A stretch of DNA of 28,790 nucleotides from Isotricha intestinalis (Eukaryota > Ciliophora > Litostomatea > Vestibuliferida > Isotrichidae). The notes below the pieces were generated by a model. That model saw only the letters and a list, made by a program, of their open reading frames with translations. It made no database searches and was not told the DNA's origin. The translations under genes were made by a program, and so were the position numbers. The first letter of the stretch is position 1. Each line of letters opens with the position of its first letter. Below are positions 9,297 through 28,135 of the stretch, in pieces. The DNA lies in NCBI GenBank assembly GCA_023807065.1, contig JAJJLU010003834.1:1-28790 (forward strand), in the 5' to 3' direction.

Positions 9297-9390
9297 TCAA
9301 AATTATATTTTTTTAAAAAAGAAATAATTTATAATATATAATATTTAACTCTGAAAGAGAATATATTTTATACATTAATTATTAATTAAA

Positions 9391-11187
9391 CTATATAAAA
9401 TTATCAAAAGAAAATACATCAACCCCAGATTTATATTTTTTCATTCCAGAAATAACTAAATCACCATTAGGCAATTGGACCATTGAATTGATTTTGGTAT
9501 AAAAATTTAAATCAATTTTTCCAAGAGTCTTCAATTCAACTCCATTATAATACCATTGCTCCAAAATTTTTTTTCCATCAGATAAAAAAGTACCATCGTT
9601 TAATTTTATAAAAAAAGTACTGGTTGTTCCACTTTCTTGACTTTTCATATCATATTCTTGAAAATTAATCATTTTAAGAGGTAAATATGATTTTGGAGGA
9701 AAAATAATAGTTGTTTTATCAAGAAAGAATAATGAATTTGCATAAATTAAAGGAAAAAATTCAGGTTGAAAAATAATATATTGTTCTAAATCTAAACAAA
9801 ATACTTTTTTCTTGTTTTCTCCATATTCTTTTAAAAAAAAAATACAATTATATTTTTCCATTTCAACAATAGAACTTATTTTTTTATCATCTTGAATAAT
9901 AATTCTAGATTGATATATATTATTATTGTTGTCCCAAATAATTATTCTACCATCATCACCACAAGAAATTAATCTATTATTTGATAATTCAATACATTGA
10001 TTTATTTTATCTTTATGTCCTATTAAAGTTTGTTCTATTTCGAATTCATTATTTGGTAAAAGATTAATAATTTTAATCAATTTATCTTCTCCAGTACTTA
10101 CAATTTTATTATTTTTTAATTGATATATTGATGTTACTGATTCTTGATTATGAATATCTATTAATATATCTATTAAATCTAAAGAATCTTTTGAATAAAT
10201 TTTTATTAATCCATCTTTACTACATGATGCTAATCTACCATCATTTAATAATATCAATTGATTAACTGGGCAATTTATATTTTGAAGTTCGTAAATTTTA
10301 TTTAATTTATTTATATTATATTTTTTATTTATATTCTGTTTTTTTTGATTTGAATTTAGGAAACATCCTGGTAAATTTGGTATCAATGATTTACTTCTTT
10401 TAATTTTATGATTTTTGAAAGTTGATTCTAATATAGAATATTTATTTTTATTTAATATTGCTTCTAGAAAAAAATCTAGATCTAATTCCTTATTTACAAT
10501 ATCTTTAAAATTTATTATCTTTTTTATATTTTCTATCATTTGATAAGAGATTTTTTGCACTTTTATGTTTTTTTTATATAAATCAAATAAATCTTTACAT
10601 AATTTAATTTCATTGGAAATCAAATTTTTATATTCCTCATAATGATTTTTAATATCAATAAAAATTTTTTCAAAATTATTTAAATAATCTTCTGCTTTTT
10701 TTAAATTTAATTCAAATTTATTTGTTTCATCTTCAGAAAACAATTTTTCATTTATATTGATTATATTATGTCTATAATGATCATTTTTGCATTTTTCACA
10801 AATATTATAATTACAACTCTCACAAAAAAAAATCAGCTTTTGATTATGGAATGAGCATAAAGAATCAAAATTTACAATATCAATATTATTATGAAAAGCA
10901 TGTAAATAACTATGATCTAAGCAAAAATATTTTAAACATCCTTTACAAAACCAAATATTTCCTAAACTTGAATGATTAATACAAGAAAAACAATTTACGT
11001 TTTTTTTTGAAAAATTTTCATTTTTTAATTTATCAAATTCACAAATTGAAATTTGACCATTATGAGAATTTGGACAAGAATATTCGAGCATAATTGAATT
11101 TTGGTTTTGGATAAGAGAAAGAAAGGGAATTGTGAAACATTCTGGACATCTTATTGTGTTTGGGAGTTTTTCGATATATTTTTTCAT
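9391..11187 (-). CDS. B-box zinc-finger/WD-repeat protein, left copy
   Basis: A 598-aa protein with a TRIM-like layout. An N-terminal zinc segment begins at Cys14-x2-Cys17 and ends around CPNSH (38-42); it is RING-like but short. A first zinc finger spans about 66-99 (Cys66, Cys69, Cys81, Cys84, Cys89, His92). A clear B-box2 spans Cys111 to His140 (ECKNDH style: Cys130, Cys133, His137). A coiled coil covers about 148-235, then WD-type blades from about 300 to 425, e.g. LNDGRLASCSKDGLIKIY and NRLISCGDDGRIIIWD. Beta-rich sequence reaches the end. TRIM-like proteins often act as ubiquitin ligases or scaffolds; whether the N-terminal finger recruits E2 is unknown. The protein is identical to the copy at 24822-26618. 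Confidence 0.85.
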   Translation of the reverse strand: MKKYIEKLPNTIRCPECFTIPFLSLIQNQNSIMLEYSCPNSHNGQISICEFDKLKNENFSKKNVNCFSCINHSSLGNIWFCKGCLKYFCLDHSYLHAFHNNIDIVNFDSLCSFHNQKLIFFCESCNYNICEKCKNDHYRHNIININEKLFSEDETNKFELNLKKAEDYLNNFEKIFIDIKNHYEEYKNLISNEIKLCKDLFDLYKKNIKVQKISYQMIENIKKIINFKDIVNKELDLDFFLEAILNKNKYSILESTFKNHKIKRSKSLIPNLPGCFLNSNQKKQNINKKYNINKLNKIYELQNINCPVNQLILLNDGRLASCSKDGLIKIYSKDSLDLIDILIDIHNQESVTSIYQLKNNKIVSTGEDKLIKIINLLPNNEFEIEQTLIGHKDKINQCIELSNNRLISCGDDGRIIIWDNNNNIYQSRIIIQDDKKISSIVEMEKYNCIFFLKEYGENKKKVFCLDLEQYIIFQPEFFPLIYANSLFFLDKTTIIFPPKSYLPLKMINFQEYDMKSQESGTTSTFFIKLNDGTFLSDGKKILEQWYYNGVELKTLGKIDLNFYTKINSMVQLPNGDLVISGMKKYKSGVDVFSFDNFI

Positions 11188-12221
11188 TTAAATTTAATTT
11201 TTTTAATATACAAATTTTTTCCTATAAATAATAAATAATTGAAATAAGAAAAATTTTCATTTTTTTTATTTCATATTTTTATTGTTCATATATTTTTTTC
11301 TTTGTTTAAGAAAATTAGAAAGTTTTTGTTTGTTTTTGTATAAATCGTGTTTTCATATTATTTATTTTATTGAAAAACGGAAAATTATTTTAAAAATATA
11401 TAAGATTTTCTTCGTTAAAAATTGAATATGTATATGATATAATTACCAATAAATCAGAGTATTATATTTATTTTTATTTGTTGATAAAATGATATTTTAC
11501 CTTTAAAACAATTTTCAATTAATTTATAGAAAAGAATATTTTACATAAGAATTTTAAAATGATTTTTCTCAATGAATAATAGAATTTCTTTTTATAGAAC
11601 AAATTTTTTAAATTAAATACTTTCCAATAAAAAAATAGAATAAATAAAGTATTTTGAATTTTTACTTCAATTAAAAAACTATTTAATAAATAAATAAAAA
11701 TAGATATAATCACTGAAAATGAATCTTATAAATCTTTAAATTAATTTGGTTCTTTCTTGATAATATATTTGATTAAATACATTAAAAAAGAAAATGAAAG
11801 TATATAAATATAAATTTTGTATTGCTATTGTTTATGCTTTATTAATAAATTTCTTATTTTTAATTATAATTAACCAATTTTTAAAATTTAAATTCTTATA
11901 AATTGTAATAAAATTATGAATAAAATGTTTGATATCTTCTTATTTTGATAATCTGAAAAAATGAAAATTTAATTTAATTCTTTTCAAGAAACTTTTGTTC
12001 TTTTTGTGTTTTAAATGGAATTTTTTTATAATGAAAATATAGGTTTATTGTTCTTTATTTTTATTAATTTAAATATTTTAACAAAAAAATTATTGATTTC
12101 AAACTTATTGACATTTTGGATATAAATTTTTTTAAAGAAGAGTACATATATTATTTTAAATAAAAATATAATATGAAATATTTTCATAATACATTTATTA
12201 ACAATAAAACAAATATAGGTT
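11188..12221. other. Upstream region of the left B-box/WD gene, diverged from its duplicate
   Basis: This ~1-kb stretch has no supported gene. It aligns with 26619-27664. The first ~65 bases are the same, then point changes and indels accumulate. Short open frames around 11519-11713 and 12026-12235 are A/T-driven Ile/Phe/Lys strings and are not conserved in the other copy, so I do not call them. Confidence 0.6.
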
Positions 12222-12685
12222 TTAAAAAATTTCATTAAATAAATATTGTTCTATTACCTGTTTATTATCATCATTTTTAAGTAAATTTTTATATATATCT
12301 TGAGGATTTTTTCTCATCAAAAGTGAATCTAATTTAGTAGTTAAAAGTTCAATTAAAAATAAATTTCAAAAAAAATTTACAGCATGAATAAGGTCAATAA
12401 TAGTATTTATATCTATATTAGTATATTCTTTATCCAAATTACTCATTTCACTTTCAAAACCATAAATGGCAACAATTCTATTTGTTTCTTTTAGTTTATT
12501 TTTATTATAATATAAAATCTATTATTTTTTTTATAATATCATATTTAATATTATGAAAAGAGAATATTGACTGATTTCCTTCGGGTAAATCTTCTTTTAA
12601 ATTATTTAATAATTTTGACTGTTTATGCTTCTTTAGATAAAGAAATTTCATTATTATTTTTAGTTATTAATATTATTTTATCCTT
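12222..12685 (-). pseudogene. Skp1-like pseudogene (decayed duplicate)
   Basis: The sequence aligns end to end with the intact Skp1-like gene at 27665-28135. The start codon is changed (ATG to AAG at 12683-12685). A 5-nt deletion lies near 12513 and a 2-nt deletion near 12626, each shifting the frame, and further small indels occur around 12355-12375. No long reading frame remains. It lies directly upstream of the first USP gene's start. Confidence 0.85.
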
Positions 12686-12815
12686 TTAATTTAAAAAAAA
12701 TATGAATTCAATAATAAAAAAAGATAAATAAATATAATTTTTATATAAATTTAAATCTTATAATAAAGTTTTATATATAAAAATTAAAAAATAGTTATTT
12801 AATTTACATAATAAA

Positions 12816-14581
12816 ATGGTGAATATATCTAATATATTTATTGAAAAAATTCTTGTTGAAAGAAATAATTCTGCGAAAATAATTCAAAATTTCTGGATAA
12901 GTAAAATAAAAATATATCAATTATTAAAATAGAATATAAAAGCAATTTATTTATTAAAAAAATTAAATTTATTAAATATATTCTACAAAAAAGAAAAGAA
13001 GGAGGAGAAAAACTAACATCATATCTCCGAACTTATTTATTTAATTTAAGAATTCATCGGTTAGTTGGGGGGTTAAAAGAATTAAATACAATATTTTCAG
13101 CTTTTGAAAATATAAAAAATAAAAAAATTTTTAAATTCTATAATATAAGAATAGAATATTTAATAGATATTCTGAGAGATTGTAAAAAATATTTAAAACA
13201 TAAGGGAAAATTGAATTTGATTATTGAAAATAAGAATTTAAATAATCGTCCAATAACAGAAAATGAAAATTATTTTAAACACATTATAAAAATTCTAAAT
13301 GAATTTAAATCTGAGATAAAAACAATGAAAAAAGAAATTGAAAATCTTAGGAAAGAAAATTTAAAAATCCAAAATGAATTAAAAAGTAAAAAAGACAATG
13401 AAAATAATAAGAATAAACATCTAGAAATTGAAAAAATATCAATAACAATAATAAATAAAAATGATTTAAAAAATAATAACGAAAATATTGTAGAAGATTC
13501 TTTACATGAACAAAAAAAACAACACGAACTTAAATTAAAATTATTTTCTGGGGAAAAATATGGAAGAGTAGGATTAAAAAATATAGGAAATACTTGTTAT
13601 ATAAATTCAGTTTTACAAATATTAAAAAATATTCCTAAGTTTACTTATAATTTCTCTAAATTAAATAATACATCAGATAAATTTTTAAATTCTTTAAAAA
13701 ATTTATTAATTAACATTTGTAAAGCAACTAATTATCCTTTTCCTCCAAACGAATTCAAAGAATGTTTAGGTTTAGAAAACAAAAGATTTAGTGGAAATGC
13801 TCAATTTGATTCAACCATATTTTATATTTCATTACTAAACATAATCGATAAAAAATTATATCAAGCAAAGAAAGATAATTATCAAAAAATAGATATGAAG
13901 AAATATGAAAAGATAAGTCTCCAAGAAAGATTTGAAATATGGAAGAATAATTATTTATCTAAACATCAATCATTTATCTATGAATTTTTTTATATATATT
14001 ATGTGAGTGAATTTGGATGCAATCACTGTTCCAATAAAACTCAACAAGTATTTCAAGCTATGAACTTGTTAGATTTTCCAATTATGAATGAAAAAGGTCC
14101 TATAAAAAATTTAAAAGAATGTTTTGAAAATTTCCAAATGAAAAAAAATGTAGATGATGATAAATGTTGTGAATGTAATAAAGTTAAATTATATCAACAA
14201 TTTATTATATTAGAATTACCTCCAGTATTAATTATTAATTTAAAAAGAGTGGGAGAAAAAAATGTTTATAATAATGAAATTGAAATTCCTTTACAATTAA
14301 ATATGAAAGAAATAATAAAAAACTTTAAAAATAATTCAATTTATGAACTAAGGGGATATATTAAACATTTAGGAGATGAAAAATCAGGACATAATTATGT
14401 TATTTGTAAAAATATGTTTGATGATAAATGGTATGAATATAATGATAGTATTTGCAATCCTTGTGATCCCGATTTACAAAGAATATTTTTTTTATGTTAT
14501 ATTAAAATTGGAAGTGATGTTGAAAATATTGAATATTTAAAGAAAATTGTTGATTTATTAAATGAGAAAAAAGATTCATAA
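12816..14581 (+). CDS. USP-family deubiquitinase with N-terminal extension (two exons)
   Basis: The spliced gene is join(12816..12900,12933..14581), 577 aa. The N-terminus has an IQ-like run across the splice junction (IIQNFWIKYK), then a helical region, then a coiled coil at about 155-190. The USP fold starts with the Cys box GLKNIGNTCYINS, with catalytic Cys250. A zinc-ribbon pair (CNHC and CCEC) sits in the middle. The His box SGHNYVICKN holds His515, and WYEYND supplies Asn532/Asp533. All catalytic elements are present, so an active thiol protease that removes ubiquitin or a ubiquitin-like modifier is expected. It closely resembles the USP at 16251. Its 3' end converges on an E2 gene with 51 bp between. 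Without splicing, the first usable start is much further in. Confidence 0.88.
12901..12932 (+). other. 32-nt spliceosomal intron in the first USP gene
   Basis: The stretch starts GTAAAATA and ends AAATAG. It interrupts a codon at phase 1. Unspliced, the frame from ATG 12816 ends at this TAG. Spliced, it joins an 85-nt first exon to the long downstream frame, which has no stop up to the USP domain. A coherent helical, IQ-like sequence spans the junction. Confidence 0.75.
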
Positions 14582-14632
14582 ATATTTAATAAAAAAAATA
14601 TTTTTTTAAAATGAATATGAAAATTAATAATT

Positions 14633-15109
14633 TTAATTATCATTTATTATTTTCAATGCATTTTGCTCATTAAATTCTTTAACTTTTTTCTTGAATTCTT
14701 CGAAATCATTTTGATATAGTAATAAAGCCTCTTTATTTAATCCATGAGATAAATTGGGATTTTTTAATAAATCATAAATAGAATAAATAACACTAATGAT
14801 ATTCCTATTATTATCCCATTCAGTAGATTTAGAAGAAACACAAATTACTCCATCTTTCAAAGAAACGTTTGGATGATATATTTTAGTAACAAATTTAATA
14901 TCTGGTGGGTCTTCAGGATAATTATTTGGAAATTTTAATAATAATTTAAATAATGCATTTTCATAACAACTTTTTTTAGGTCCTTTTATTAAAACATTCC
15001 ATGTAAATATATCTGATTTTTTTTGTGGTCCTGCAGAACTACCTATATGAGTTAATAATTGACTAGTTTTAATTCTATCTAATTCTTCTCTTATATAGGT
15101 TTCACTCAT
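14633..15109 (-). CDS. E2 ubiquitin-conjugating enzyme (copy A)
   Basis: A 158-aa UBC-fold protein starting at ATG 15109; the in-frame sequence just upstream starts with TTG and is unlikely. Helix 1 reads REELDRIKTSQLL. The core has the Pro-rich FPNNYPEDPP loop (about 60-69), the HPN motif at 79-81 and the catalytic cysteine Cys90 in GVICVSS. A conserved Trp follows, then the helix with NPNLSHGLNKEA. It accepts the activated modifier from E1 as a thioester and passes it to E3 or substrate. Its start faces that of a second E2, 104 bp apart, and both share the unusual (I/V)CVSS around the active site, so they are duplicates. The partner modifier cannot be read from the sequence. Confidence 0.9.
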   Translation of the reverse strand: MSETYIREELDRIKTSQLLTHIGSSAGPQKKSDIFTWNVLIKGPKKSCYENALFKLLLKFPNNYPEDPPDIKFVTKIYHPNVSLKDGVICVSSKSTEWDNNRNIISVIYSIYDLLKNPNLSHGLNKEALLLYQNDFEEFKKKVKEFNEQNALKIINDN

Positions 15110-15213
15110 AATTATAAATATCAATAGAAATTAAGATTTATTTTTTTAAAAAAATAGTTAAAACATATAAATGCCATTTAAAGTTTAGAAAAAATTAACT
15201 TTAAGAAAGAAAT
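15110..15213. promoter_or_regulatory. Bidirectional gap between two head-to-head E2 genes
   Basis: Only 104 bp separate the two opposed start codons, so the promoters must overlap or be shared. The gap is A/T-rich. I cannot identify a specific binding site. Confidence 0.4.
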
Positions 15214-15707
15214 ATGACAAAATCAGCGGAAGAGATATTAAGAGAAGAATGGGACTATTAAAAAAATCAGGTCTTTTAAGTCAAATCGGTTGCTCAGCTG
15301 GTCCAAAAAAAACTAAAGGTATTTATAATATGTTTTTATGGAATGCATTAATAAGAGCTCCCAAAAATTCTCCTTATAGTGGTTATATGTTCAAATTTGA
15401 AATTATATTTCCTACAAGTTATCCAAATTCTCCTCCAACAGTGAGATGTATAACTAATATATATCATATGAATATAGCTGAAAATGGAGATGTTTGTGTT
15501 TCTTCAATAAAAGAAGGTGATAAATGGAAAACTGCTCGAGATATTAGTACAGTACTTTTATCTATTTTTATTATTTTCAGTAAACCTAATCCTCAGAGCC
15601 CTTATAGATCGGATATTGCAGAACAGTATCAAAACAAATATGAAGATTATGAAAAAGCAGTTAAAGACCATTGTGCAAAAAATGCAATTAAAATTCCTGA
15701 AAATTAA
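15214..15707 (+). CDS. E2 ubiquitin-conjugating enzyme (copy B), frame disrupted near the start
   Basis: From ATG 15214 the frame encodes helix 1 residues (MTKSAEEILREEWDY) that align with copy A, then stops at TAA 15259-15261. The rest of the E2, LKKSGLLSQIGCSAGPKK onwards, continues in a different frame to 15707. One extra base near 15256-15260 would join them into about 164 aa. An ATG at 15249 would give 152 aa lacking most of helix 1. The UBC core is intact: Pro loop FPTSYPNSPP and catalytic Cys encoded at 15495-15497 (GDVCVSS). The HPN motif is His-Met-Asn, with the proline lost. Explanations are a sequencing error, a recent inactivation, use of the internal start, or frameshifting. The low substitution load elsewhere suggests the gene is or was recently functional. 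Confidence 0.8.
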
Positions 15708-15912
15708 TCTTTTTTTTTATATGGTATGACAGTTTTTTTAAAGAAAAAAAGTAACTATTACTTATAAAATTTTTAAGTTCACAATTTGTATTTTAAAAAC
15801 AATTTAATTTAAATTCTTTTTATTTTCTTATTAAATTAAATATATTCAAAAGATATTTTAAAAACCAAAATATATAATATATTTGTATTAATATAATTTA
15901 TTTATTTTAATT

Positions 15913-16143
15913 TTATTTACCAGCTTTGAATATTCCTAGATAGTTGATAGTAACACCTTCAACAATATCTAAATCTGCTAAATTTTCATTATCATTTAAA
16001 ATAATTCCATTATATAATAATTCAACTTCTTCGTTCATATTATATAATTTATTCATTTGTTTTTTCAGTTCTGAAACTGTGTCTGATTCCATTATATTAA
16101 TGGGTTTTCTCTGGTTTTTTGAATCTACAATATAAATTTTCAT
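15913..16143 (-). CDS. Divergent ubiquitin-like modifier ending Ala-Gly-Lys
   Basis: The protein is exactly 76 aa, like ubiquitin, and aligns along its length (MKIYIVDS at the start; LLYNGIILNDNENLADLDI in the middle matches the ubiquitin stretch around LIFAGKQLEDGRTLSDYNI). Relative to ubiquitin there is one deletion before residue 40 and a one-residue extension at the end. The tail is GIFKAGK: Gly75 corresponds to ubiquitin Gly76, Ala74 to Gly75, and Lys76 is extra. The E1-contact Arg72 is Ile71. The Lys48 and Lys63 positions are Ile47 and Glu62. This could be a conjugated modifier needing removal of one residue, or a non-conjugated ubiquitin-fold protein. It sits head-to-head with a USP gene, 107 bp apart, and next to two E2s. 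Confidence 0.82.
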   Translation of the reverse strand: MKIYIVDSKNQRKPINIMESDTVSELKKQMNKLYNMNEEVELLYNGIILNDNENLADLDIVEGVTINYLGIFKAGK

Positions 16144-16250
16144 TTTTAAAGTTGTTTTATTTATAAAAGAAAAATAATAACTATTTTTATTTCAACATTA
16201 ACTATTTATTAAAAGAAAATAATTTATTATAAAAGTTAATAATTTCGAAC
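16144..16250. promoter_or_regulatory. Bidirectional gap between the modifier and second USP genes
   Basis: The start codons of the ubiquitin-like gene (-) and the USP gene (+) are separated by 107 bp of A/T-rich DNA. The close opposed starts allow joint control of modifier and protease. No motif is recognised. Confidence 0.4.
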
Positions 16251-17594
16251 ATGAATCTAAGAACCGTTTACTCACATCAAAAGAAAAATGTTCAACAAAC
16301 ATTAAAATTCAATATAAGCCATAATAATGAACCTATTAAAATCATAGACTACAACAAAAAAAAAATACCCAATAAAAAAAATGAGAAACCTCAGAATAGA
16401 AATTGTTCAAGTTTGAAATCAAACAATAATAAAATATATCAACAAAACAACAATAAACCCTCCAATGATAGTCTTAATTCGAAAAAGATTGAACAATCAA
16501 AAATTAGATCCGAAAGTAATTTTGGCCGAAGACGGTCTAATAACATTGAGAAACCAAGCAATGGTAAATATGTTAATGGAACAATAGGTTTGATTAATAT
16601 AGGAAATACTTGCTACTTAAATTCTGCTATCCAAAATTTGAAAAACGTTCATCTGTTAACTAAACATTTATTATTAAATCATAAAAATTATATTCCTAAT
16701 AGTTTTACTTTGAAATATTGTGAATTAATTGCAAATTTAATAAACCAAGATACTTACAAATATTATGAACCTAGAAAATTTTTTTCAAAATTAAATGAGC
16801 TTATACCCACATTCAGGTTTGGACAACAAAATGATAGTAATTTTTGTATTATTTATATTTTAAATTTATTAGAAAAAGGGACTACAAAGGATAGTAATAA
16901 TAATTTTTGTAAAAGAGATAAAATAATATTAAAAGATGAATTAGAAAAATCGCGGTTTGCTAATTTTCAAGAAAAATTATATAAAAGAAGAAATTCACCT
17001 ATTGTTGAATACTTTTATGGATATCAAGAGGATATATATAAATGTAAGGACTGTAAATATAGTAATTATACTTTTCAAGCAATTAGTGTTTTGAACCTTT
17101 CAATTATGAAAAAAAATAATACAGTTATTGATAATTTAAATGATGCAATTAAATATTATCAAATGGAACAAAGTCATGATAATGAACAAGATTTTTTTTG
17201 TCCTGAATGTAAAAAAAATAAAATATTTACTCAATCAAAAATTATTTCTTTTCCTAAAATTTTAATAATTAATTTAAAGAGAATTGGAGAGAATAATTTT
17301 TATGATCATAATGTTGACTATCCCTTAAAGTTGGAAGTATCTAATTATTCATATGAATTAATTGGATACATAAAACATAAAGGAGGAGCGAATTCAGGGC
17401 ATAATATTGCTGTCTGCAAAAATTTTTTTGATGATTGTTGGTATGTATACAATGATAATATTGTGTACCCTATAATAAAAGAAAATACAGAAACTCAAAA
17501 TTCATTTTTATTTTTTTATCAAAAAGTGGAAGAAAGAATCAATGACACGGATAAAGAATTTATTATAAATGAATCAGCAAAACTAAGAATTTAA
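16251..17594 (+). CDS. USP-family deubiquitinase (second copy)
   Basis: A single-exon gene of 447 aa from ATG 16251. The first ~105 residues are basic and Asn/Lys-rich, probably disordered. The USP domain starts with GLINIGNTCYLNS, catalytic Cys121. A zinc-ribbon pair follows (CKDC, then CPEC). The His box SGHNIAVCKN has His384, and WYVYND gives Asn401/Asp402. The triad is complete. The domain is closely related to that of the USP at 12816, including GYIKH before the His box and FFDDxWYxYND after it, so the two are paralogues. The different N-termini (coiled coil there, basic tail here) suggest different partners or locations. A candidate job is trimming Lys76 from the neighbouring modifier or removing it from targets; this is inference from position only. 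Confidence 0.9.
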   Translation: MNLRTVYSHQKKNVQQTLKFNISHNNEPIKIIDYNKKKIPNKKNEKPQNRNCSSLKSNNNKIYQQNNNKPSNDSLNSKKIEQSKIRSESNFGRRRSNNIEKPSNGKYVNGTIGLINIGNTCYLNSAIQNLKNVHLLTKHLLLNHKNYIPNSFTLKYCELIANLINQDTYKYYEPRKFFSKLNELIPTFRFGQQNDSNFCIIYILNLLEKGTTKDSNNNFCKRDKIILKDELEKSRFANFQEKLYKRRNSPIVEYFYGYQEDIYKCKDCKYSNYTFQAISVLNLSIMKKNNTVIDNLNDAIKYYQMEQSHDNEQDFFCPECKKNKIFTQSKIISFPKILIINLKRIGENNFYDHNVDYPLKLEVSNYSYELIGYIKHKGGANSGHNIAVCKNFFDDCWYVYNDNIVYPIIKENTETQNSFLFFYQKVEERINDTDKEFIINESAKLRI

Positions 17595-17894
17595 ATTATA
17601 TTTTTGAAATTGATGAAAATGAAAAGAAAGATGTTAATATAATAATTATATTGAATAATAATTTTGAATAAAATTAAAAAATAAAAAACATTTAAATAAA
17701 TTTGAAAAAAATTCAATAATATATATTTTTTAAAATAGAAAAGAAAAAAAATGAGGAATATTGATTGGACATTATCCAATTTAATGTTCAATTTAATATT
17801 TAAATCAAAAATTAAATAATAAATTATTCTTTATATGAATATTGTTATTAATAAACACAATATGCCATTTAATATATTATAAATATAATAATAA
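17595..17894. other. A/T-rich intergenic stretch
   Basis: No gene is seen between the end of the second USP gene and the start of the Hsp70 remnant. It probably contains the USP 3' end. Confidence 0.35.
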
Positions 17895-19245
17895 AAGAAT
17901 GAATGGACAAACTATTTGTTTGTAATATTTTAATTTAAAAATATTCTTTTGTTTTCTTTGGAGAATTCCAACTATTATCAGTTTAACTAAAAATGGAATA
18001 TTTGTTTGAGATTTTTTAAAATATACAACACATTTTATTTTTTAATCCATATAATAGGAAGAAAATTTAATGATTGAAAAATATAAAAGGACATTTAAAT
18101 TTTACCTTTTTTAAAGTAATGAAAATCAATATAATAATCTTAAAATAGAAATATCAGTTATAAGATTTCTTTCTAATTTTAAATAAATTCAAAAATATTT
18201 TTGAACGTATAAGGAAAGTAATGCCATCATTATATGTCCTACTTTTTTTGATAACTTCAAAGAAAGGTAACTGATGGCAAATAAAATTGTATACAAATGT
18301 ATTAAAAATATTTAATGAAAAAAGTTATAAAGAAAATTATCAGGGAATAAAATAAATTTTAATATTTCATTTTGGGGGAGAATAGTTGAGTAACACTAAT
18401 TTATGAGAAGATTTTGAAAATAGAGAATTAATATATTGTTTTCTAGAATTTAAGGAAAAAATTGGAATTAATATTTCTAATTCTTTGTAGGTTAAAGTTT
18501 TATGTGAAAAATCTGAAATTATTTATCATCATTAAAAAGACTCTAAAAAGATTTTGTATTAGGAGAAGATTTTAATTTAACAATTACTCGTTCAGAAATG
18601 GAAGTTTTATTCAAAGAAGATTTTTAACAAATGTATTTCAATTATAGAAAAGGTAACAGAAAATGAAAAGATAACAAAAGAAGGAATAAATGATATTGTA
18701 CTTGTTGGAATATCCATATATAATTCTAAAATACAACTATTATTTAAGGAATTTAATTGGAAAAGAACTTAATATCATTATTCATTCTGATGAACTAATA
18801 CCAATACTGGAATTTAAGGTTTAATAAAAAAATATTACTTATTTATTTCAATTTGATAAAATAGATAAACTATTTTGGAGTTTATAAATTTAAATAATAA
18901 AGAATTAATTATTTATTCCTAGAAATAATTTAATCCTAATAAAAAAATTATGTTGGATATAGAAAAAGATAATCAAAAAAAATTAAAATTAAAATATATA
19001 AAAATGTTAATTTTATTACTCAAAAATCAAAAAGAGAAATAATAGAAAAATTTTCTTTTAAATAGATAATAATTAAATGTTCATCTTAAATCCAAAATCA
19101 TAATAAAACACAAATAAAGGAAATTCAATCAGATAAAGATAAGAATGAAGGTGAGATTAATAAATTATTAAAAAGTGTAAGAAATGAAAGATGAAGATAT
19201 GGAAAATTAATAATAAATAACATAAAAGCAAAAAATTTAATTAAA
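17895..19245 (+). pseudogene. Decayed Hsp70 gene
   Basis: Hsp70 landmarks appear in family order over ~1.3 kb but in changing frames. There is a possible start-like piece near 17905-17935, then IIGRKFND at about 18052, VMPSLYVPTFFDNF near 18215-18265 (matching the VPAYF segment) and a GGE/EDFENRE piece near 18375-18425. EFKEKIGINISN follows near 18450-18480, then EDFNLTITRSEMEVLF near 18565-18615. The clearest run is KCISIIEKVTENEKITKEGI followed by NDIVLVG (about 18630-18710), then KELNII.HSDE. Remnants of the lid end near 19240. Stops and indels separate the parts, so no chaperone can be made. Confidence 0.88.
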
Positions 19246-20137
19246 GATAATCAAAAAACTATCTTTTATAAAAATTTATATAAAAATTATATAACAATCA
19301 AATAAAAAATAAATTAAAATTTGAAAGATTGAAAAATTATAATTTAAATAAAAAAATGAGATAATAATTATTTAAATAAAAAATTCTTTTTTTTTCTTTG
19401 ATTCTTCTAAATAAAAGAATTTTCATAAAATTATTGGAGGGAAAAGAAAATTTAAAATTATAAAGAGTTTAATTGAATTGCCTTAATTCTATTTAAAATT
19501 TTTTATTATTTTCATTCTAATAATAACTTTTAAATTCCAATAAAATTGGTTTTGAAAGGACTTCAGATATTTCAAGAGAATTAAAATTAAATCTGAATTA
19601 AAGATATATCAAAATTTAGAAGATATCAAGTTTTTTATTCTTATTATTCTTATAATTTATGAAATTTGAAATTTCCAAATCCATTAATTACAGTTGTATA
19701 TAATCAATTTATTATTAAAACTTAATGAGAGTAATGTCACTAAAATTATTATTTATATCATTTTTTTTTCTATTTTAATTTATTTAGTTATTTTATTGGA
19801 TTTACAAATATATTTTCAAATATTAACAAAATTAATTAAAGGTTTGTTATAATTGATTTTAATATTCATAATTTTCATTCTCAGTGATGATATTTGTTTT
19901 TATTTATTTATTATTTTTTTTTAATTGATTGCTAAGGAAGTAAAATTTACAATATTTTATGATATCTTTGTTAATAGGAAAGTATTTAATAGAATTTAAA
20001 AAAGGTATTCTATAAAAAGAATTCAATTTTATATTAAGTACATTAAGTTAATTAAAATTGTGTAATTATTCTATTTTATAAATTATTGAAAATTATTTTG
20101 AGGGAAAAAATTGTCGTTTAAAACATCCAAAATTCTT
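19246..20137. other. Intergenic stretch without a recognisable gene
   Basis: About 890 bp of A/T-rich DNA follow the Hsp70 remnant. I see no reading frame with family resemblance, no RNA gene and no clear repeat. Confidence 0.35.
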
Positions 20138-20551
20138 TTATTTCATGTTTAAATATTTTTTTTTTTCTTCATTTAAAAAATAATCATAATTATTTAATAT
20201 TTTAATTATATACCTCCATAAAAAAAAAATAAAATAAATAATTTTTTTAAAAATTTTTGTCAAAAAAAAGATAATGAAATACATTAATTTGAAGAAATTA
20301 TCATAAATATTAATACAAATTTTAATAATTCTTGTCAAAAAAAAGAAAATGAAATACATATAACAGAAAAAAAAAAATATATTAATAATTTCTATATCAT
20401 TATTCTCATTTAAAACATAAATTTTTTTTTGATTTTGAATTTTATTATCATAAAAATTTCTAATTACATTATTGTTTTCGAATCTAGAAATATTTTCATT
20501 ATTAACTTTATTATTTATAATTTCTGAATAAAAATATGGATTATTTCTCAT
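20138..20551 (-). CDS. Small hydrophobic protein, unknown
   Basis: A 137-aa open frame from ATG 20551. The first ~55 residues are polar and Asn-rich; the rest has two or three very hydrophobic Phe/Ile segments (about 56-72, 88-101 and 105-117) that could span a membrane. Two of them, containing MYFIFFFLTRI and MYFIIFFLTKI, are related through an internal 75-nt duplication, which preserves the frame. No family is recognised. The start faces the E1 gene across 110 bp. The amino acids are also what A/T-rich DNA gives by chance, so it may not be a gene. Confidence 0.4.
   Translation of the reverse strand: MRNNPYFYSEIINNKVNNENISRFENNNVIRNFYDNKIQNQKKIYVLNENNDIEIINIFFFFCYMYFIFFFLTRIIKICINIYDNFFKLMYFIIFFLTKIFKKIIYFIFFLWRYIIKILNNYDYFLNEEKKKYLNMK
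20257..20360. repeat. Imperfect 75-nt-spaced direct repeat inside the small hydrophobic ORF
   Basis: A ~28-nt unit beginning TTGTCAAAAAAAAG occurs at 20257 and again at 20332 with few changes. The spacing is 75 nt, a multiple of three, so the encoded hydrophobic segment is duplicated in frame. Confidence 0.6.
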
Positions 20552-20661
20552 TTATTTGAATTTTTAATTCTTAAACTATAATATAAGAAAAATAAACTAT
20601 TTTTAAAAAAGAAAATAGTTAATAAAAATCATATTTTAATGGTTTTCATTAATTAATCATA

Positions 20662-23600
20662 ATGATTACATTAAATAATGAAAAAAATGACACAATTGAT
20701 CATGACAAATGGTCAAGACAAATTAAAACTTATGGAATTGAAATAACAAAAATTTTGTCAAAATTAAAAATTTTGATAATTGGTCTAAGAGGATATGGAA
20801 TTGAAATAGCGAAAAATATCATTTTGTCGAATCCACAAAAAGTTTCAATATTTGATGAACAAATTTGTAAAATTAATGATTTAGGATGCAATTATTTTTT
20901 AACAAATGAAAATGTATTAAATAAAGAAAGAAGAGATCATGCTTGCTTAAAAAAATTAGCAGAATTAAATCCAACAACTAAAATTGTTATTGAAAATGAT
21001 TATTTGTCTAAAATTAAAGAATTTGATGTTGTAATAATTACTGAAATTATGAAATCAGATATAATTAATAAAATAAATAAGGAATGTCATGAAAATAATA
21101 AAGGTTTTATTTACACTTCATCTCTAGGTTTAACAGGTTTTGTTTTTAGTGATTTAGGACAAAAACATATTATAAAAGATAAAACTGGAAAAGAAAAAGG
21201 GAAATTTTATATTTTAAATATAACTAAAGAAAAAAACGGAAAAATGAAAATTGATTTCAAACAAACAGAAAAAAGATTAAATCAAAATGGATATTTAATT
21301 TTTAAACAAGTTGAAGGTATGATAGAAATAAATTCATCTATTCCAAGATATTATGAAGCTGATCAAGAAAATGAAGATGAATATTTTATAGGAGATACTT
21401 CAAATTATAATGAATATATTGGTGGAGGAATAGTAGAAGAATTTGATTATCCTATAGAAATGAATTATAAAACATTGAAAGACGACTTATTGAATCCTAC
21501 TGATACTATGATGCAAATTGATTATTCACAAAATAAAAAAGGTAGAAAACAATTATTACATGCTTTATTTATTAATCTTCAAAGATATTATGATAAAAAT
21601 GGTAAATTACCTGATCTTAATAATGAAGATGAATCTGAAGAATTATTTAATCAAATATCAGAATTTTCGAAAAATATGAGGGATAATGAATTTTTTAAAA
21701 ATTTACCTGAACTAAATAAAATTCTTATTAAAGATTTAATTAAATTTTCAAAAGCTCAACATCCTTCTTTATGTTCGTTTTTAGGTGGATTTGTTGCACA
21801 AGAATCGATAAAATATACTGGATTATATTGTCCTTTAAATCAATGGTTCTGGATTGATATATATGATGAAACAATAGTAAATTTATCAAATGTTAATAGA
21901 ACAATTTTAAATAGTAGGTATGATGATTTAATTTCTATTTATGGGCAAGAATTTGTAGAAAAATTACATAATTGTAATATGTTTTTAGTTGGTGCAGGAG
22001 CAGTGGGATGTGAATATTTGAAAATTTTGTCTTTAATGGGTATAGCAACAAAAAACAATTGTAAAGTTATTGTGACTGATAATGATTGTATAGAAAATTC
22101 AAATTTAAATAGACAATTTTTATTTAGAAAAGAACATGTTGGAAAAAGTAAATCCTTAACTGCCTGTGAACAAGTAAAAAAAATTAATCCTGAATTTAAT
22201 TGTGAGGGTTATCAAATTGAGGTCAGAGAAGAAAGTGAAGATATATTTAATGAAAATTTCTATAAAAATCAAGAATTTGTATTAATTGCAGTTGATAATG
22301 TCAAAGCTAGAAATTATATTAATAATCAGTGTACATTACATCGAATTAAATTAATTGAATGTGGTACTCTTGGTGAAAATGCAAGCAGTCAATTAATTAT
22401 TCCTTTTGTATCTGAAGAATATAATGGAAAAGAAAACAATAATAAAATTGGAATGTGTACTATAAGAAATTTACCTTCTTCAATTGAACATTGCGTTGAA
22501 TGGAGTAGAGATAAATTCTCAGAATATTTTGATAAAAACATTAAATTATTAAAAAATTTTTTTGAAGGTCCACAAGAATTTTTTAAAAATAATGAAGGAG
22601 GAATTGATTTTTATGAAAAATTAATATATTTGAAAGAATATGTGAAAATTTTTAAAAAAAAAAGTTATGATAGATGTTTATATTTAGGTAAAAAATTATT
22701 TTATTTAAACTATAAAAAATTAATTGAAGAGATTTTATTATTAAATCCTCCTAATAAATTATGTCAAGATGGAAGTAAATTTTGGAAAGGAAGTAACAGA
22801 TTACCACATATATTAGAATATAATAATGATGAGGAAATGAATTATTATTATATAGAATATTTTTCATATTTATTAGCAGATTCACTTGGAATTCCAATTA
22901 ATAATGATTTAATCTATAAAAAGGATTTTCTAAAATTAAACAAAATTTCAGCAAATGATGAAATAATTGATAATAATATATATAGTAATGAAAACTTAAA
23001 TAAAATAAATGATTTAAAATTAGAATTATTAAAATTATATTCAGAAGGGTTTAATCAAGAAGAAATAAACAAAATTCATGAACAAATTTTTGAAAAAGAT
23101 CATGATGAAAATCATCAAGTTGATTTTTTATATGTATCATCAAATTTGAGAGCATCAAATTTTAATATAGATCTTTGTTCAAGAGATAAAGTAAAATTTA
23201 TATCTGGAAAAATAGTTCCATCAATTCCAACAACAACTTCTTGTATAGTTGGATACATATCTTCTCAAATCTTTACTTTATTACAAACAACAGAATTAAA
23301 GTATTTAAGACAAATAAATATTGATTTATCTACTCCATTTTTCTTAATTTATAAACCTAGAAAAGTATATCAAAATAAGGATTCTATTCACCCAATTACT
23401 AGCATTTTAACAAAGGCCATTCCATCTAATTTCACTTGCTGGGATTATTTGGAAATAAAAGGAAATAAAACTACAAATGATGTTATTAACTATATTAATG
23501 AGACATATCAAGTAGAAATTAATGGATTATATACTTTAAATAGTAAAAATATCATAATAGATGACACTTCATATAACATACAATTTCAAGATGCATATTA

Positions 23601-23724
23601 TATTGCTATAGGAAAAAATACCAATGAAAATAATGGTCATAACATATATTTTAGAGTCTTAGCAGATGTTATTGATAGTGATGATCATGTGATAATGCCA
23701 AAATTTAAATATATTATAAATTAA
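20662..23724 (+). CDS. Ubiquitin-activating enzyme E1 (UBA1-type)
   Basis: A single-exon gene of 1020 aa, the usual UBA1 length. The inactive adenylation half opens with SRQIKTYG and IIGLRGYGIEIAKNII (about 17-54). The active half carries the nucleotide loop FLVGAGAVGCE (441-451) and NSNLNRQFLF with the following Arg/Lys residues. The catalytic cysteine is Cys599 in GMCTIRNLPSSIEH, which matches the conserved (P/x)xCTLxxFPxxIEH motif. The C-terminal ubiquitin-fold domain begins near NFTCWDYLEIKG (about 922) and runs to the end; it recruits E2. The enzyme adenylates the modifier's C-terminal glycine and passes it to E2. It could be the cell's ordinary E1 or one matched to the divergent modifier 4.5 kb away. 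Nothing essential looks missing. Confidence 0.95.
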   Translation: MITLNNEKNDTIDHDKWSRQIKTYGIEITKILSKLKILIIGLRGYGIEIAKNIILSNPQKVSIFDEQICKINDLGCNYFLTNENVLNKERRDHACLKKLAELNPTTKIVIENDYLSKIKEFDVVIITEIMKSDIINKINKECHENNKGFIYTSSLGLTGFVFSDLGQKHIIKDKTGKEKGKFYILNITKEKNGKMKIDFKQTEKRLNQNGYLIFKQVEGMIEINSSIPRYYEADQENEDEYFIGDTSNYNEYIGGGIVEEFDYPIEMNYKTLKDDLLNPTDTMMQIDYSQNKKGRKQLLHALFINLQRYYDKNGKLPDLNNEDESEELFNQISEFSKNMRDNEFFKNLPELNKILIKDLIKFSKAQHPSLCSFLGGFVAQESIKYTGLYCPLNQWFWIDIYDETIVNLSNVNRTILNSRYDDLISIYGQEFVEKLHNCNMFLVGAGAVGCEYLKILSLMGIATKNNCKVIVTDNDCIENSNLNRQFLFRKEHVGKSKSLTACEQVKKINPEFNCEGYQIEVREESEDIFNENFYKNQEFVLIAVDNVKARNYINNQCTLHRIKLIECGTLGENASSQLIIPFVSEEYNGKENNNKIGMCTIRNLPSSIEHCVEWSRDKFSEYFDKNIKLLKNFFEGPQEFFKNNEGGIDFYEKLIYLKEYVKIFKKKSYDRCLYLGKKLFYLNYKKLIEEILLLNPPNKLCQDGSKFWKGSNRLPHILEYNNDEEMNYYYIEYFSYLLADSLGIPINNDLIYKKDFLKLNKISANDEIIDNNIYSNENLNKINDLKLELLKLYSEGFNQEEINKIHEQIFEKDHDENHQVDFLYVSSNLRASNFNIDLCSRDKVKFISGKIVPSIPTTTSCIVGYISSQIFTLLQTTELKYLRQINIDLSTPFFLIYKPRKVYQNKDSIHPITSILTKAIPSNFTCWDYLEIKGNKTTNDVINYINETYQVEINGLYTLNSKNIIIDDTSYNIQFQDAYYIAIGKNTNENNGHNIYFRVLADVIDSDDHVIMPKFKYIIN

Positions 23725-24070: not shown

Positions 24071-24727
24071 TTATTCATGATTTTGATTAAATATTGAAAA
24101 AATATTTAAATTGTTATTACTATCTAAATAATTTTGATATACTGATTTCACTTCAGATTGAGTTATTTTCTTTTTTTTTTCTAATTCTTGAATAATATTT
24201 TTATTTTTAAAATTATTATAATTATCTATATATAAGTTTTCTAATTTATTTAATGTTTCAATATATTTTTTATAATTGTTGAAATTTAATTCATATTTTT
24301 CTTGAAATTCCTTTAAAATTATATTGAATTTATTTGATTCTTCTAGAAATTTAAAATGATCTTCTTCAAATTTATTTGTAATACCTTGAATAATTTCTCC
24401 AACAACCATTAAAATATATTGAAATTTTTCCTGAGTTGAATTAAGAATATTCAGAAACACTTCATGAAAAAATGTTTTTGGTTCTATATTTATAATATCA
24501 TTTGATACTCTTTTCAATAAGATATGTATTTTAGATAAAAAATCCTTTATAAATTCTTGATAACACATAAGTACATTTCCAATATTTCCTAAAGTATAAT
24601 CAAGACATATTTCTTCATTTTGATTTGAAAAAAATTTTTCTATTTGATTTTTTTTTTTTTCATTTAGTTGAAAATATAAAAGATTGTTTTGATAACCATT
24701 TTCTTTTTTAATACTATCTTTTAACAT
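24071..24727 (-). pseudogene. Truncated copy of the BAR-like coiled-coil gene
   Basis: The first 211 codons are the same as in the full-length gene ending at 7680. At 24096 similarity ends. The frame then adds seven unrelated codons (IFNQNHE) and stops. The product would be 218 aa against 538 aa and would lack the second helical domain and part of the first. It may be transcribed and even translated as an N-terminal helical fragment, but it is best read as a gene cut by the duplication breakpoint. The start codon and upstream 94 bp match the intact copy. Confidence 0.8.
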
Positions 24728-24821
24728 TCAAAATTATATTTTTTTAAAAAAGAAATAATTTATAATATATAATATTTAACTCTGAAAGAGAATATATTTT
24801 ATACATTAATTATTAATTAAA

Positions 24822-26618
24822 CTATATAAAATTATCAAAAGAAAATACATCAACCCCAGATTTATATTTTTTCATTCCAGAAATAACTAAATCACCATTA
24901 GGCAATTGGACCATTGAATTGATTTTGGTATAAAAATTTAAATCAATTTTTCCAAGAGTCTTCAATTCAACTCCATTATAATACCATTGCTCCAAAATTT
25001 TTTTTCCATCAGATAAAAAAGTACCATCGTTTAATTTTATAAAAAAAGTACTGGTTGTTCCACTTTCTTGACTTTTCATATCATATTCTTGAAAATTAAT
25101 CATTTTAAGAGGTAAATATGATTTTGGAGGAAAAATAATAGTTGTTTTATCAAGAAAGAATAATGAATTTGCATAAATTAAAGGAAAAAATTCAGGTTGA
25201 AAAATAATATATTGTTCTAAATCTAAACAAAATACTTTTTTCTTGTTTTCTCCATATTCTTTTAAAAAAAAAATACAATTATATTTTTCCATTTCAACAA
25301 TAGAACTTATTTTTTTATCATCTTGAATAATAATTCTAGATTGATATATATTATTATTGTTGTCCCAAATAATTATTCTACCATCATCACCACAAGAAAT
25401 TAATCTATTATTTGATAATTCAATACATTGATTTATTTTATCTTTATGTCCTATTAAAGTTTGTTCTATTTCGAATTCATTATTTGGTAAAAGATTAATA
25501 ATTTTAATCAATTTATCTTCTCCAGTACTTACAATTTTATTATTTTTTAATTGATATATTGATGTTACTGATTCTTGATTATGAATATCTATTAATATAT
25601 CTATTAAATCTAAAGAATCTTTTGAATAAATTTTTATTAATCCATCTTTACTACATGATGCTAATCTACCATCATTTAATAATATCAATTGATTAACTGG
25701 GCAATTTATATTTTGAAGTTCGTAAATTTTATTTAATTTATTTATATTATATTTTTTATTTATATTCTGTTTTTTTTGATTTGAATTTAGGAAACATCCT
25801 GGTAAATTTGGTATCAATGATTTACTTCTTTTAATTTTATGATTTTTGAAAGTTGATTCTAATATAGAATATTTATTTTTATTTAATATTGCTTCTAGAA
25901 AAAAATCTAGATCTAATTCCTTATTTACAATATCTTTAAAATTTATTATCTTTTTTATATTTTCTATCATTTGATAAGAGATTTTTTGCACTTTTATGTT
26001 TTTTTTATATAAATCAAATAAATCTTTACATAATTTAATTTCATTGGAAATCAAATTTTTATATTCCTCATAATGATTTTTAATATCAATAAAAATTTTT
26101 TCAAAATTATTTAAATAATCTTCTGCTTTTTTTAAATTTAATTCAAATTTATTTGTTTCATCTTCAGAAAACAATTTTTCATTTATATTGATTATATTAT
26201 GTCTATAATGATCATTTTTGCATTTTTCACAAATATTATAATTACAACTCTCACAAAAAAAAATCAGCTTTTGATTATGGAATGAGCATAAAGAATCAAA
26301 ATTTACAATATCAATATTATTATGAAAAGCATGTAAATAACTATGATCTAAGCAAAAATATTTTAAACATCCTTTACAAAACCAAATATTTCCTAAACTT
26401 GAATGATTAATACAAGAAAAACAATTTACGTTTTTTTTTGAAAAATTTTCATTTTTTAATTTATCAAATTCACAAATTGAAATTTGACCATTATGAGAAT
26501 TTGGACAAGAATATTCGAGCATAATTGAATTTTGGTTTTGGATAAGAGAAAGAAAGGGAATTGTGAAACATTCTGGACATCTTATTGTGTTTGGGAGTTT
26601 TTCGATATATTTTTTCAT
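24822..26618 (-). CDS. B-box zinc-finger/WD-repeat protein, right copy
   Basis: The 598-aa product is identical to that of the gene at 9391-11187: N-terminal zinc segment from Cys14, zinc finger 66-99, B-box2 at Cys111-His140, coiled coil about 148-235, and WD-type blades about 300-425. No synonymous differences were seen in the stretches compared. Its downstream neighbour is truncated here, and its upstream neighbour, the Skp1-like gene, is intact here, the reverse of the left copy. The promoter-proximal ~65 bp are the same in both copies; sequence further upstream differs, so expression could differ. Confidence 0.85.
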   Translation of the reverse strand: MKKYIEKLPNTIRCPECFTIPFLSLIQNQNSIMLEYSCPNSHNGQISICEFDKLKNENFSKKNVNCFSCINHSSLGNIWFCKGCLKYFCLDHSYLHAFHNNIDIVNFDSLCSFHNQKLIFFCESCNYNICEKCKNDHYRHNIININEKLFSEDETNKFELNLKKAEDYLNNFEKIFIDIKNHYEEYKNLISNEIKLCKDLFDLYKKNIKVQKISYQMIENIKKIINFKDIVNKELDLDFFLEAILNKNKYSILESTFKNHKIKRSKSLIPNLPGCFLNSNQKKQNINKKYNINKLNKIYELQNINCPVNQLILLNDGRLASCSKDGLIKIYSKDSLDLIDILIDIHNQESVTSIYQLKNNKIVSTGEDKLIKIINLLPNNEFEIEQTLIGHKDKINQCIELSNNRLISCGDDGRIIIWDNNNNIYQSRIIIQDDKKISSIVEMEKYNCIFFLKEYGENKKKVFCLDLEQYIIFQPEFFPLIYANSLFFLDKTTIIFPPKSYLPLKMINFQEYDMKSQESGTTSTFFIKLNDGTFLSDGKKILEQWYYNGVELKTLGKIDLNFYTKINSMVQLPNGDLVISGMKKYKSGVDVFSFDNFI

Positions 26619-27664
26619 TTAAATTTAATTTTTTTAATATACAAATTTTTTCCTATAAATAATAAATAATTGAAATAAGAAAAATTTCATTTTTTTAATT
26701 TCATATTTTTATTGTTCATATATTTTTTTCTTTGTTTAAGAAAATTATAAAGTTTTTGTTTATTTTTGTATAAAGGGTGTTTTCATATTATTTATTTTAT
26801 TGAAAAACGGAAAATTATTTTAAAAATATATAAGATTTTCTTCGTTAAATAATTAATATGTATATGATATAATTATCAATAAACCCGAGTTTTATATTTA
26901 TTTTTATTCATTTATTAAATGATACTTTACCTTTAAAGCAAATTTCAATTAATTTATAGAAAAGAATATTTTACATAAAAATTTTAAAATGATTTTTCTC
27001 AATGAATAATAGAATTTCTTTTTATAGAACAACTATTTTAAATTAAATACTTTCCAATAAAAAAAATGAATAAATAAAGTATTTTTAATTTTTACTTCAA
27101 TTTAAAAACTATTGAATTAATAAATAAAAATAGATATAATTACTGAGAACTAATATTATAAATCTTTAAATTAATGTCATTCTAGATATTTATAAATCCA
27201 ATATAGCAGATTAAATTCATTAAAAAAGAAAATGAAAGTATATAAATATAAATTTTGTATGCTATAGTTTATGTTTTATTAATAAATTTCTTATTTACAA
27301 TTATAATCAACTAATTTTGGAAATTTAAATTATTGTTATAAATTTTAATAAAATTATGAATAAAATGTTTGATATATTCTTAATTTTGATAATCTGAAAA
27401 AATGAAAGGGTTTAATTTAATTCTTTTTCAAGAAACTTTTGTTCTTTTTGTGTTTTAAATAGAATTTATTTATAATGAAAATATAGGTTTGTTGTTCTTT
27501 ATTTTTATTAATTTAAATATTTTAACAAAAAAATTATTGATTTCAAACTTATTGACATTTTGGGTTTTTTAATTTTTAAAGAAGAGTAAATATATATTTT
27601 AAATAAAATTTAATATAATATGAAACATTTTCATAATTTATTAACAATAAAACAAATAAAGATT
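26619..27664. other. Diverged upstream region between B-box/WD and Skp1-like genes
   Basis: This stretch of ~1 kb aligns with 11188-12221 but with frequent point changes and indels after the first ~65 bases. No gene is conserved between the two copies, which argues against a hidden coding region. Confidence 0.55.
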
Positions 27665-28135
27665 TTAAAAAATTTCATTAAATAAATCTTGTTCATTTAC
27701 CTGTTTATTATCATCATTTTTAGGTAAATTTTTATATATTTCTTCAGGATTTTTTCTCATCATAAGTGAATCTAATTTAGTAGTTAAAAGTTCAATTAAA
27801 GATTTAATTTCAAAAAAATTTGCAGCATGAATAAGGTCAATAATAGTATTTATATCTATATTAGTATATTCTTTATCAAAATTACTCATTTCACTTTCAA
27901 AATCATAAATAGCAACCACTCTATTCGTTTCTTTTGGTTTATTTTTATTATAATATTCAAGAAAATCTACTATTTTTTTGGCAATATCATATTTAATATT
28001 ATGAAAAGAGAATATTGGTTGATTTCCTTCAGGTAAATCCTCTATTAAAGTATTTAATAATTTTGATTGTTTAGAAGCTTCTTTAGACAAAGAAATTTCA
28101 TTATTATTTTCAGTTATTAATATTATTTTATCCAT
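27665..28135 (-). CDS. Skp1-like adaptor protein
   Basis: A 156-aa protein starting at ATG 28135. The N-terminal POZ-like half has KIILITENNNEISLSKEASK, then LIEDLPEGN and PIFSFHNIKYDIAKKIVDFL, matching Skp1 order. The C-terminal half has FDKEYTNIDINTIIDLIHAA (Skp1: WDxEFVKVDQxTLFDLILAA), then IKSLIELLTTKL and NPEEIYKNL (Skp1: TPEEIRKTF). Skp1 links F-box substrate receptors to cullin in SCF ubiquitin ligases. The usual acidic, Trp-containing tail is replaced by KQVNEQDLFNEIF, and a Lys/Asn loop (KNKPKE) is inserted at about 64-72, so F-box binding may differ. Its left duplicate is a pseudogene. Confidence 0.88.
   Translation of the reverse strand: MDKIILITENNNEISLSKEASKQSKLLNTLIEDLPEGNQPIFSFHNIKYDIAKKIVDFLEYYNKNKPKETNRVVAIYDFESEMSNFDKEYTNIDINTIIDLIHAANFFEIKSLIELLTTKLDSLMMRKNPEEIYKNLPKNDDNKQVNEQDLFNEIF

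Follow-up and report, generated by a model that had tools for sequence, protein, structure and literature searches.

The ubiquitin-type gene cluster

The window analysed here is one entire contig of 28,790 nucleotides (JAJJLU010003834.1) from the assembly of the ciliate Isotricha intestinalis (GCA_023807065.1; 57.3 Mb, 2153 contigs). All inside 10.9 kb, it holds the genes of a UBA1-type activating enzyme (E1), two sister ubiquitin-conjugating-type enzymes (E2a and E2b), two sister ubiquitin-specific-protease-type proteins (USPa and USPb) and a 76-amino-acid protein of the ubiquitin family, referred to below as the modifier. The GC content ranges from 14 to 23% across the window in 1-kb steps, and the genes are read with the standard code. 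A preliminary description, made from the letters alone, had placed a UBA1-type E1, two E2s, two USPs and a 76-aa modifier in about 11 kb; each member was recovered with Pfam, and the gene cluster is thereby confirmed.

The order of the genes is USPa(+), E2a(-), E2b(+), modifier(-), USPb(+), a 3.07 kb spacer, and E1(+). The first five occupy 4,779 bp (12816-17594), provided that a predicted intron connects the first exon of USPa to the rest of the gene, with intergenic gaps of 51, 104-124 (depending on the start codon chosen), 205 and 107 bp, in agreement with the 4.8 kb and the 51-205 bp given at the outset. To begin at 12816, USPa requires a GT-AG intron, which was predicted from frame joining only: a 32-nt candidate (12901-12932) keeps the frame and yields a 577-aa USP, and an alternative intron of 98 nt would fit as well. 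With genes on alternating strands, the locus is not an operon; its two head-to-head pairs, E2a/E2b and modifier/USPb, could share promoters. A weak Hsp70 remnant (E 0.0097, under the family cut-off) lies at 18581-18769, between USPb and the E1.

Table 1. Positions, strands and supporting matches of the cluster features in the window.
Feature	Position	Strand	Match or remark
USPa, ubiquitin-specific-protease-type	12816..14581	+	Pfam UCH E 1.9e-39 on 13211-14581
E2a, ubiquitin-conjugating-type, HPN and Cys	14633..15109	-	Pfam UQ_con E 8.8e-38 (14633-15124)
E2a/E2b gap, 104 bp between divergent start codons	15110..15213		shared promoter possible
E2b, sister of E2a, HMN replaces HPN	15214..15707	+	Pfam UQ_con E 2.1e-36 on 15249-15707
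Modifier, 76 aa, ubiquitin fold, C-terminus Ala-Gly-Lys	15913..16143	-	Pfam ubiquitin E 1.5e-9
Modifier/USPb gap, 107 bp between divergent start codons	16144..16250		shared promoter possible
USPb, ubiquitin-specific-protease-type, nearest to USPa	16251..17594	+	Pfam UCH E 1e-37
UBA1-type E1, 1020 aa, non-housekeeping	20662..23724	+	Pfam ThiF 1.9e-55, SCCH 1.4e-41, FCCH, 4HB

The encoded proteins and their relatives

The modifier is a single-copy gene, the next match in the genome reaching only 26 bits. The best of five AlphaFold models displayed a beta-grasp fold with a predicted local distance difference test score (pLDDT) of 87.4 and a predicted template modelling score (pTM) of 0.73, two of the five runs being poor (pLDDT 59.7 and 47.6); this model superposed on ubiquitin (1ubq) with a template modelling score of 0.91 at 20% sequence identity. 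Thirty-two relatives were found, sharing 54-100% identity, 75-91 aa long and made of a single ubiquitin-like (Ubl) domain. Ala74-Gly75 is invariant in all of them (32/32), whereas the tail behind it varies in sequence and in length (0-16 residues) and is missing in 4/32. This combination would be expected of a precursor that loses its tail by cleavage. With a beta-grasp fold and a conserved C-terminal Gly followed by a variable tail or none, the modifier has the sequence features of a conjugatable Ubl, and its attachment to targets is predicted. The C-terminus of the window protein reads GIFKAG, as compared to LRLRGG in ubiquitin. At the position of ubiquitin Arg72, found by counting back from the last Gly, the relatives carry Ile (24), Val (4), Gln (2), Met (1) or Tyr (1), and Arg in none of the 32.

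The E1 is one 1020-aa chain in which Pfam recognised two ThiF stretches, FCCH, 4HB and SCCH. A search of the genome with this protein returned full-length matches on contigs C322 (41% identity) and C1330 (40%), a match to the N-terminal half on C1825, and more distant E1s on C167, C297, C196 and others. The absence of any other UBA1 from the genome would have contradicted the preliminary description, but C322 encodes one, which scores 753 bits against yeast Uba1, versus 444 bits for the window E1. Canonical ubiquitin genes, ending RLRGG-N, are also found elsewhere, on C1494 and C145. Because C322 provides the better UBA1 and canonical ubiquitin is present, the assignment of the window E1 as the housekeeping UBA1 was rejected, as also argued by its separate clade and by the residues discussed below. 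For the gene beside the C322 UBA1, structures of CFAP21A from Tetrahymena (8g3d, 8g2z) match best, at 232 bits, the next one scoring 129; with the standard code, the low GC and the short predicted intron, this points to a ciliate.

Among the best 120 of 989 metagenomic matches, 79 E1 relatives share 60-100% identity with the window protein, after which identity drops to 44%. Eight of these 79 are fragments shorter than 950 aa, and the catalytic-Cys motif was found in all 79. A tree was built in quick mode, with Shimodaira-Hasegawa-like approximate likelihood ratio support only, from 57 E1 sequences: 6 from the genome itself, 10 taken out of the 79 members of the window family, and the remaining 41 listed matches. 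The window family groups in a single clade (100), distinct from that of C322. It is joined by two other non-housekeeping clades (100), with a third branching outside them (88); the C1330 and C297 E1s have long branches and an uncertain placement. These three additional clades (P0080-P0111) each have a gate-loop sequence of their own. In a scan of prokaryote genomes, only two of the best 80 of 168 matches, L082 and L083 (28% identity), cover most of the E1, the others listed being shorter and lying chiefly over the adenylation domain; a bacterial origin was rejected. One of the two, L082:115-4542, is on a sheep-rumen bin contig filed as Clostridia and joins an amidohydrolase to a UBA1-type E1 in one frame, possibly through an assembly chimera; the origin of this bin suggests, more weakly, a rumen habitat for the ciliate.

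Pfam did not match a UFD, the E2-docking domain, in the window E1, and listed one in 4/79 entries of its family (fragments included) versus 15/15 housekeeping E1s. As residues 929-1020 adopt a compact strand-helix fold, in a model that is poor overall (pLDDT 66, pTM 0.43), the domain is probably present but diverged.

UBA1 needs Arg72 of ubiquitin, according to extracts of a published study (PMC3731359). In the housekeeping clade, the equivalents of Gln576 and Asp591 are conserved in 16/16 and 16/16 sequences. When gate positions were counted from a conserved Tyr in 78 members of the window family (P0064 of the 79 was not parsed), the Asp591 equivalent was present in 2/78, and position 574 was Ser in 78/78, so that neither Asn nor His occurs there. 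Both gate residues are lost in the C1330 E1 (Asn, Ile). The invariant Ala-Gly with its variable tail, the non-Arg residue at position 72 and the loss from the E1 family of the Asp that binds Arg72 fit a dedicated E1-modifier pair.

E2a and E2b share 40% identity. Their relatives, the best 120 of 303 matches, were split by score into 60 E2a-like and 60 E2b-like proteins. The HPN motif is present in 60/60 of the former, with the catalytic Cys recognised by pattern in 59/60; the latter carry HMN in 60/60 and the Cys in 60/60. In a tree of 37 E2s, comprising 17 of the 120 listed relatives and 20 E2s of the genome itself, E2a and E2b fall into sister clades (98/92), adjoined by the E2s of C525 and C1454 (86/80). 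The window E2s form clades of their own. The C1454 E2 (L064:1471-1956) is sister to the C525 E2 (100/99), and none of the Ubl, USP or E1 types considered here lies within 1.5 kb of it.

The UCH domain and the Cys and His boxes were found in the window USPs by Pfam and by reading the translations, USPa carrying GNTCY and SGHNY, respectively. USPa and USPb are 33% identical, and the best non-self match of USPb in the genome is USPa (142 bits, the next being 66 bits).

Linkage of these genes in relatives was read from exact equal lengths (at least 4 kb) of the longest contig per protein cluster. Eight lengths were shared between the E1 and modifier lists, 13 between E1 and E2, and 8 between modifier and E2, as compared to null means of 0.12, 0.31 and 0.11 (maxima 3, 3 and 1) obtained by sliding one list 1 to 200 bases in either direction. 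The lengths 7913, 10715, 11014 and 11964 occurred in all three lists, and the 41 other listed E1 matches had no length in common with the modifier or E2 lists. Since the number of shared exact lengths is far above chance, the linkage of E1, modifier and E2 is very probably conserved in relatives. Pairs drawn from single contigs are expected to show correlated distances, and rho was 0.46 for E1-modifier (8 pairs, 56/5000 permutations as high), 0.76 for E1-E2a (8 pairs, 1/5000) and 0.42 for modifier-E2a (7 pairs, 162/5000).

Related sets in the genome and the flanks of the cluster

Three other loci carry divergent partial sets. In about 2.6 kb, C525 encodes an E2, a USP and a Ubl of 77 aa whose C-terminus reads DGG-N. 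C1825 contains an E2, a USP, an E1 frame and an 85-aa frame ending VGGG-KKGIRY, which belongs to no Pfam family and is Ubl-like by eye. On C1330, an E1 and a USP stand back to back beside a UBTD-like protein. The USPs of C525 and C1330 are 44% identical over 205 aa, and the Ubls of C525 and C1825, aligned from the C-terminus, have no Arg at the gate position. When the 1.5 kb around the best 30 of 62 E2 loci were inspected, only C1270, C525 and C1825 had a Ubl, USP or E1 of the types described here. The three partial sets indicate that copying and re-specialisation of the E1-E2-USP-modifier module probably took place in this group.

Several further ubiquitin-type genes were noticed. On the minus strand of C196 (L164:1-3882, L163:3-9899, L007:754-4353), a 5732-aa frame has a complete UBA1-type E1 behind a UBC domain and would encode an all-in-one E1-E2 giant; its UBC is BIRC6-like (233 bits to BIRC6) and its E1 has FCCH, SCCH and a weak UFD match. 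A second fusion on C167 (L005:1-4665) is a 1934-aa frame with UBC, then ThiF and SCCH, and both fusions retain the Asp591 equivalent. C297 (L006:1111-3732) carries a divergent E1-like frame that lacks the usual catalytic-site Cys-Thr and whose upstream piece has a stop. Long frames on C2 and C284 (L011, L015) carry at their C-terminus a near-canonical ubiquitin that ends RLRGA and RLRGC, respectively, in place of RLRGG, and a NEDD8-like gene, named by eye, ends KGG-F on C1387 and C942.

The preliminary description had extended the cluster to an RBR E3 gene about 6 kb to one side and to a Skp1 gene on the other. Their membership is not supported: the RBR gene (5323-6909) is one of 38 RBR matches in the genome, and the Skp1-like gene belongs to a segmentally duplicated flank. 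This duplication brackets the cluster at 8665-12689 and 24096-28139, about 15.43 kb apart, and comprises a B-box/WD40 gene, a frame of no assigned family and the Skp1-like gene, which has a long open frame in the right-hand copy only (27665-28135). The window also contains a Ccdc124/Oxs1 gene at 1615-2085 and a 546-aa frame without Pfam family at 3435-5075.

A putative private pathway and its known counterparts

We consider it likely, with a probability of about 0.7, that the six genes constitute a pathway devoted to the attachment and removal of a new modifier. The genes lie side by side, and four of them, the E1, modifier and E2 genes, are apparently linked in relatives, so that all six likely belong to one private pathway. 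The second UBA1, the separate clades, this apparent linkage and the gate changes support the dedicated system for a divergent modifier that was first suggested from the window alone. In such a pathway, the USPs would trim the residues behind the invariant Ala-Gly and would also cut the conjugates. From the domains and catalytic motifs that it retains intact, the E1 is expected to adenylate the terminal Gly, hold the modifier as a thioester and pass it to E2a or E2b. The housekeeping UBA1 of C322 is predicted not to accept the modifier, given that Arg never occurs at the Arg72 position, following the rule given in the extracts of PMC3731359, and the two head-to-head pairs may keep expression in step.

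Several observations weigh against this reading. The E1 stands 3.07 kb apart from the five-gene block, beyond the Hsp70 remnant, and its fold model is of poor quality. In the assembly, the E2b frame is broken near the N-terminus and open from 15249, the close relative P0154 being intact. Linkage was inferred from equal lengths of longest contigs and not from the contigs themselves, and the distance correlation fails for E1-E2b (9 pairs, rho 0.16, 1171/5000 permutations as high). The related sets are incomplete as well: C525 has no E1 match, C1330 has no E2 and no small Ubl was seen there, and on C1825 the E1 is truncated after its first half and the USP is interrupted by a stop. The modifier ends with Ala-Gly and not with Gly-Gly. 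Finally, Gln576 is kept in 78/78 window-family E1s, and a Gly-x-Glu loop is found in 76/78, whose Glu may stand in for Asp591. In view of this possible replacement, the altered gate fits re-gating but might still admit Arg.

The retained Gln576 and the Gly-x-Glu loop bear on an unlikely alternative, in which the window E1 is a second ubiquitin E1 of dual specificity, similar to UBA6, and the cluster E2s and USPs serve ubiquitin too. Along with Gln576 and the nearly invariant Glu of the gate loop, the pocket Tyr is retained, and extracts of PMC12355090 describe a single UBA6 pocket that accommodates Arg72 when ubiquitin binds and Tyr161 when FAT10 does. Yet Asp591 is gone in 76/78 members of the family, Ser occupies position 574 throughout in place of Asn or His, the UFD profile is mostly unrecognised, and the genome already possesses a full housekeeping UBA1. 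It is less probable still that the small protein stays unconjugated and acts as a regulator or decoy which binds the E1 or the USPs, the E1 and E2s serving another modifier. Ala-Gly in place of Gly-Gly would agree with such a role, as would the four relatives that have no tail to process; against it, Ala-Gly is invariant precisely at the conjugation position while the residues behind it vary, and the locus yielded no second Ubl.

There is little to recommend the view that the genes became neighbours by chance and local tandem duplication, with no joint function. The E2s and the USPs are indeed tandem-type duplicates, the flanks are a duplicated block and the genome is rich in USPs (135 matches), but only about 1e-4 E1 loci would be expected by chance to have E2, USP and Ubl genes all inside one 16-kb span, given 8 E1, 62 E2 and 90 Ubl matches and about 110 USP genes merged from those 135, and the apparent linkage extends across many relatives. 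Least probable of all is a mobile or virus-derived cassette, which the compactness of the cluster and the diverged partial sets at other loci might suggest: viral contigs scanned twice with the E1 gave no relative, no transposase or viral family appeared among the window proteins run against Pfam, and the window E1 branches among UBA1-type E1s of the same group.

If the six genes do form a dedicated pathway, they would represent a new eukaryotic protein modifier with its own E1, E2s and proteases, recognised as a set through gene linkage, and the orthogonal E1-E2-modifier set could be used in engineering. The C525, C1825 and C1330 sets and the three additional E1 clades would then offer a natural series in which to follow the co-evolution of modifier, E1 gate and E2 surface and the multiplication of ubiquitin systems. 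A broader proposal, for which we would give slightly less than even odds, is that gut ciliates evolved a family of orthogonal Ubl pathways, each a small gene cluster with its own modifier, E2, USP and often a re-gated UBA1-type E1, the Arg72 gate position of the modifier being occupied by Ile, Ala or some residue other than Arg. The prokaryotic ubiquitin operon would thereby have been re-invented in eukaryotes, with new modifiers arising through copying and re-gating of the whole module. Among the titles and abstract beginnings found in the open-licence literature, none concerned a cluster of this type in ciliates or in any other eukaryote.

Gene arrangements of this kind are known chiefly from archaea and bacteria. 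Extracts of published work describe archaeal ubiquitylation operons, in Candidatus Caldiarchaeum subterraneum and Asgard archaea, that encode a modifier, an E1, an E2 and a processing protease together (PMC5654768). The Isotricha cluster resembles them in the grouping of the genes and in a modifier made as a tailed precursor; it differs from these operons, which have a JAMM protease of the Rpn11 type and a RING E3, by its USPs, full UBA1-type E1, two E2s and alternating strands, no E3 being identified (PMC5654768). Likewise, bacterial BilABCD operons group the genes of a Ubl, an E1, an E2 and a protease, but BilA carries a pair of Ubl domains and the protease, BilC, is of the JAMM class, as reported in portions of PMC11354881, in contrast to the single Ubl and the USPs found here. 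PADLOC gave a weak match of the window E1 to BilD over the adenylation domain (E 8.7e-9) and no match for the modifier or the USPs, and no JAMM protease was matched among the window proteins run against Pfam. By analogy, the cluster would work like the archaeal and bacterial Ubl operons without being a member of them.

In vertebrates, the genes of the UBA7-ISG15 and UBA6-FAT10 systems are scattered in the genome. The Isotricha cluster would resemble these systems in pairing a UBA1 paralogue with its own modifier and E2, as passages of PMC12355090 describe for UBA7-UBE2L6-ISG15 and UBA6-UBE2Z-FAT10. The Isotricha modifier shares with FAT10 (Tyr161) a non-Arg residue at the gate, and unlike ISG15 and FAT10, which are tandem double Ubls, it has one Ubl domain and clustered genes (PMC12355090). 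Like NEDD8, it consists of one Ubl domain and has a residue other than Arg at position 72, which separates NEDD8 from UBA1, as stated in the extracts of PMC3731359; the NEDD8 E1 is heterodimeric, whereas the Isotricha E1 combines both halves in one chain.

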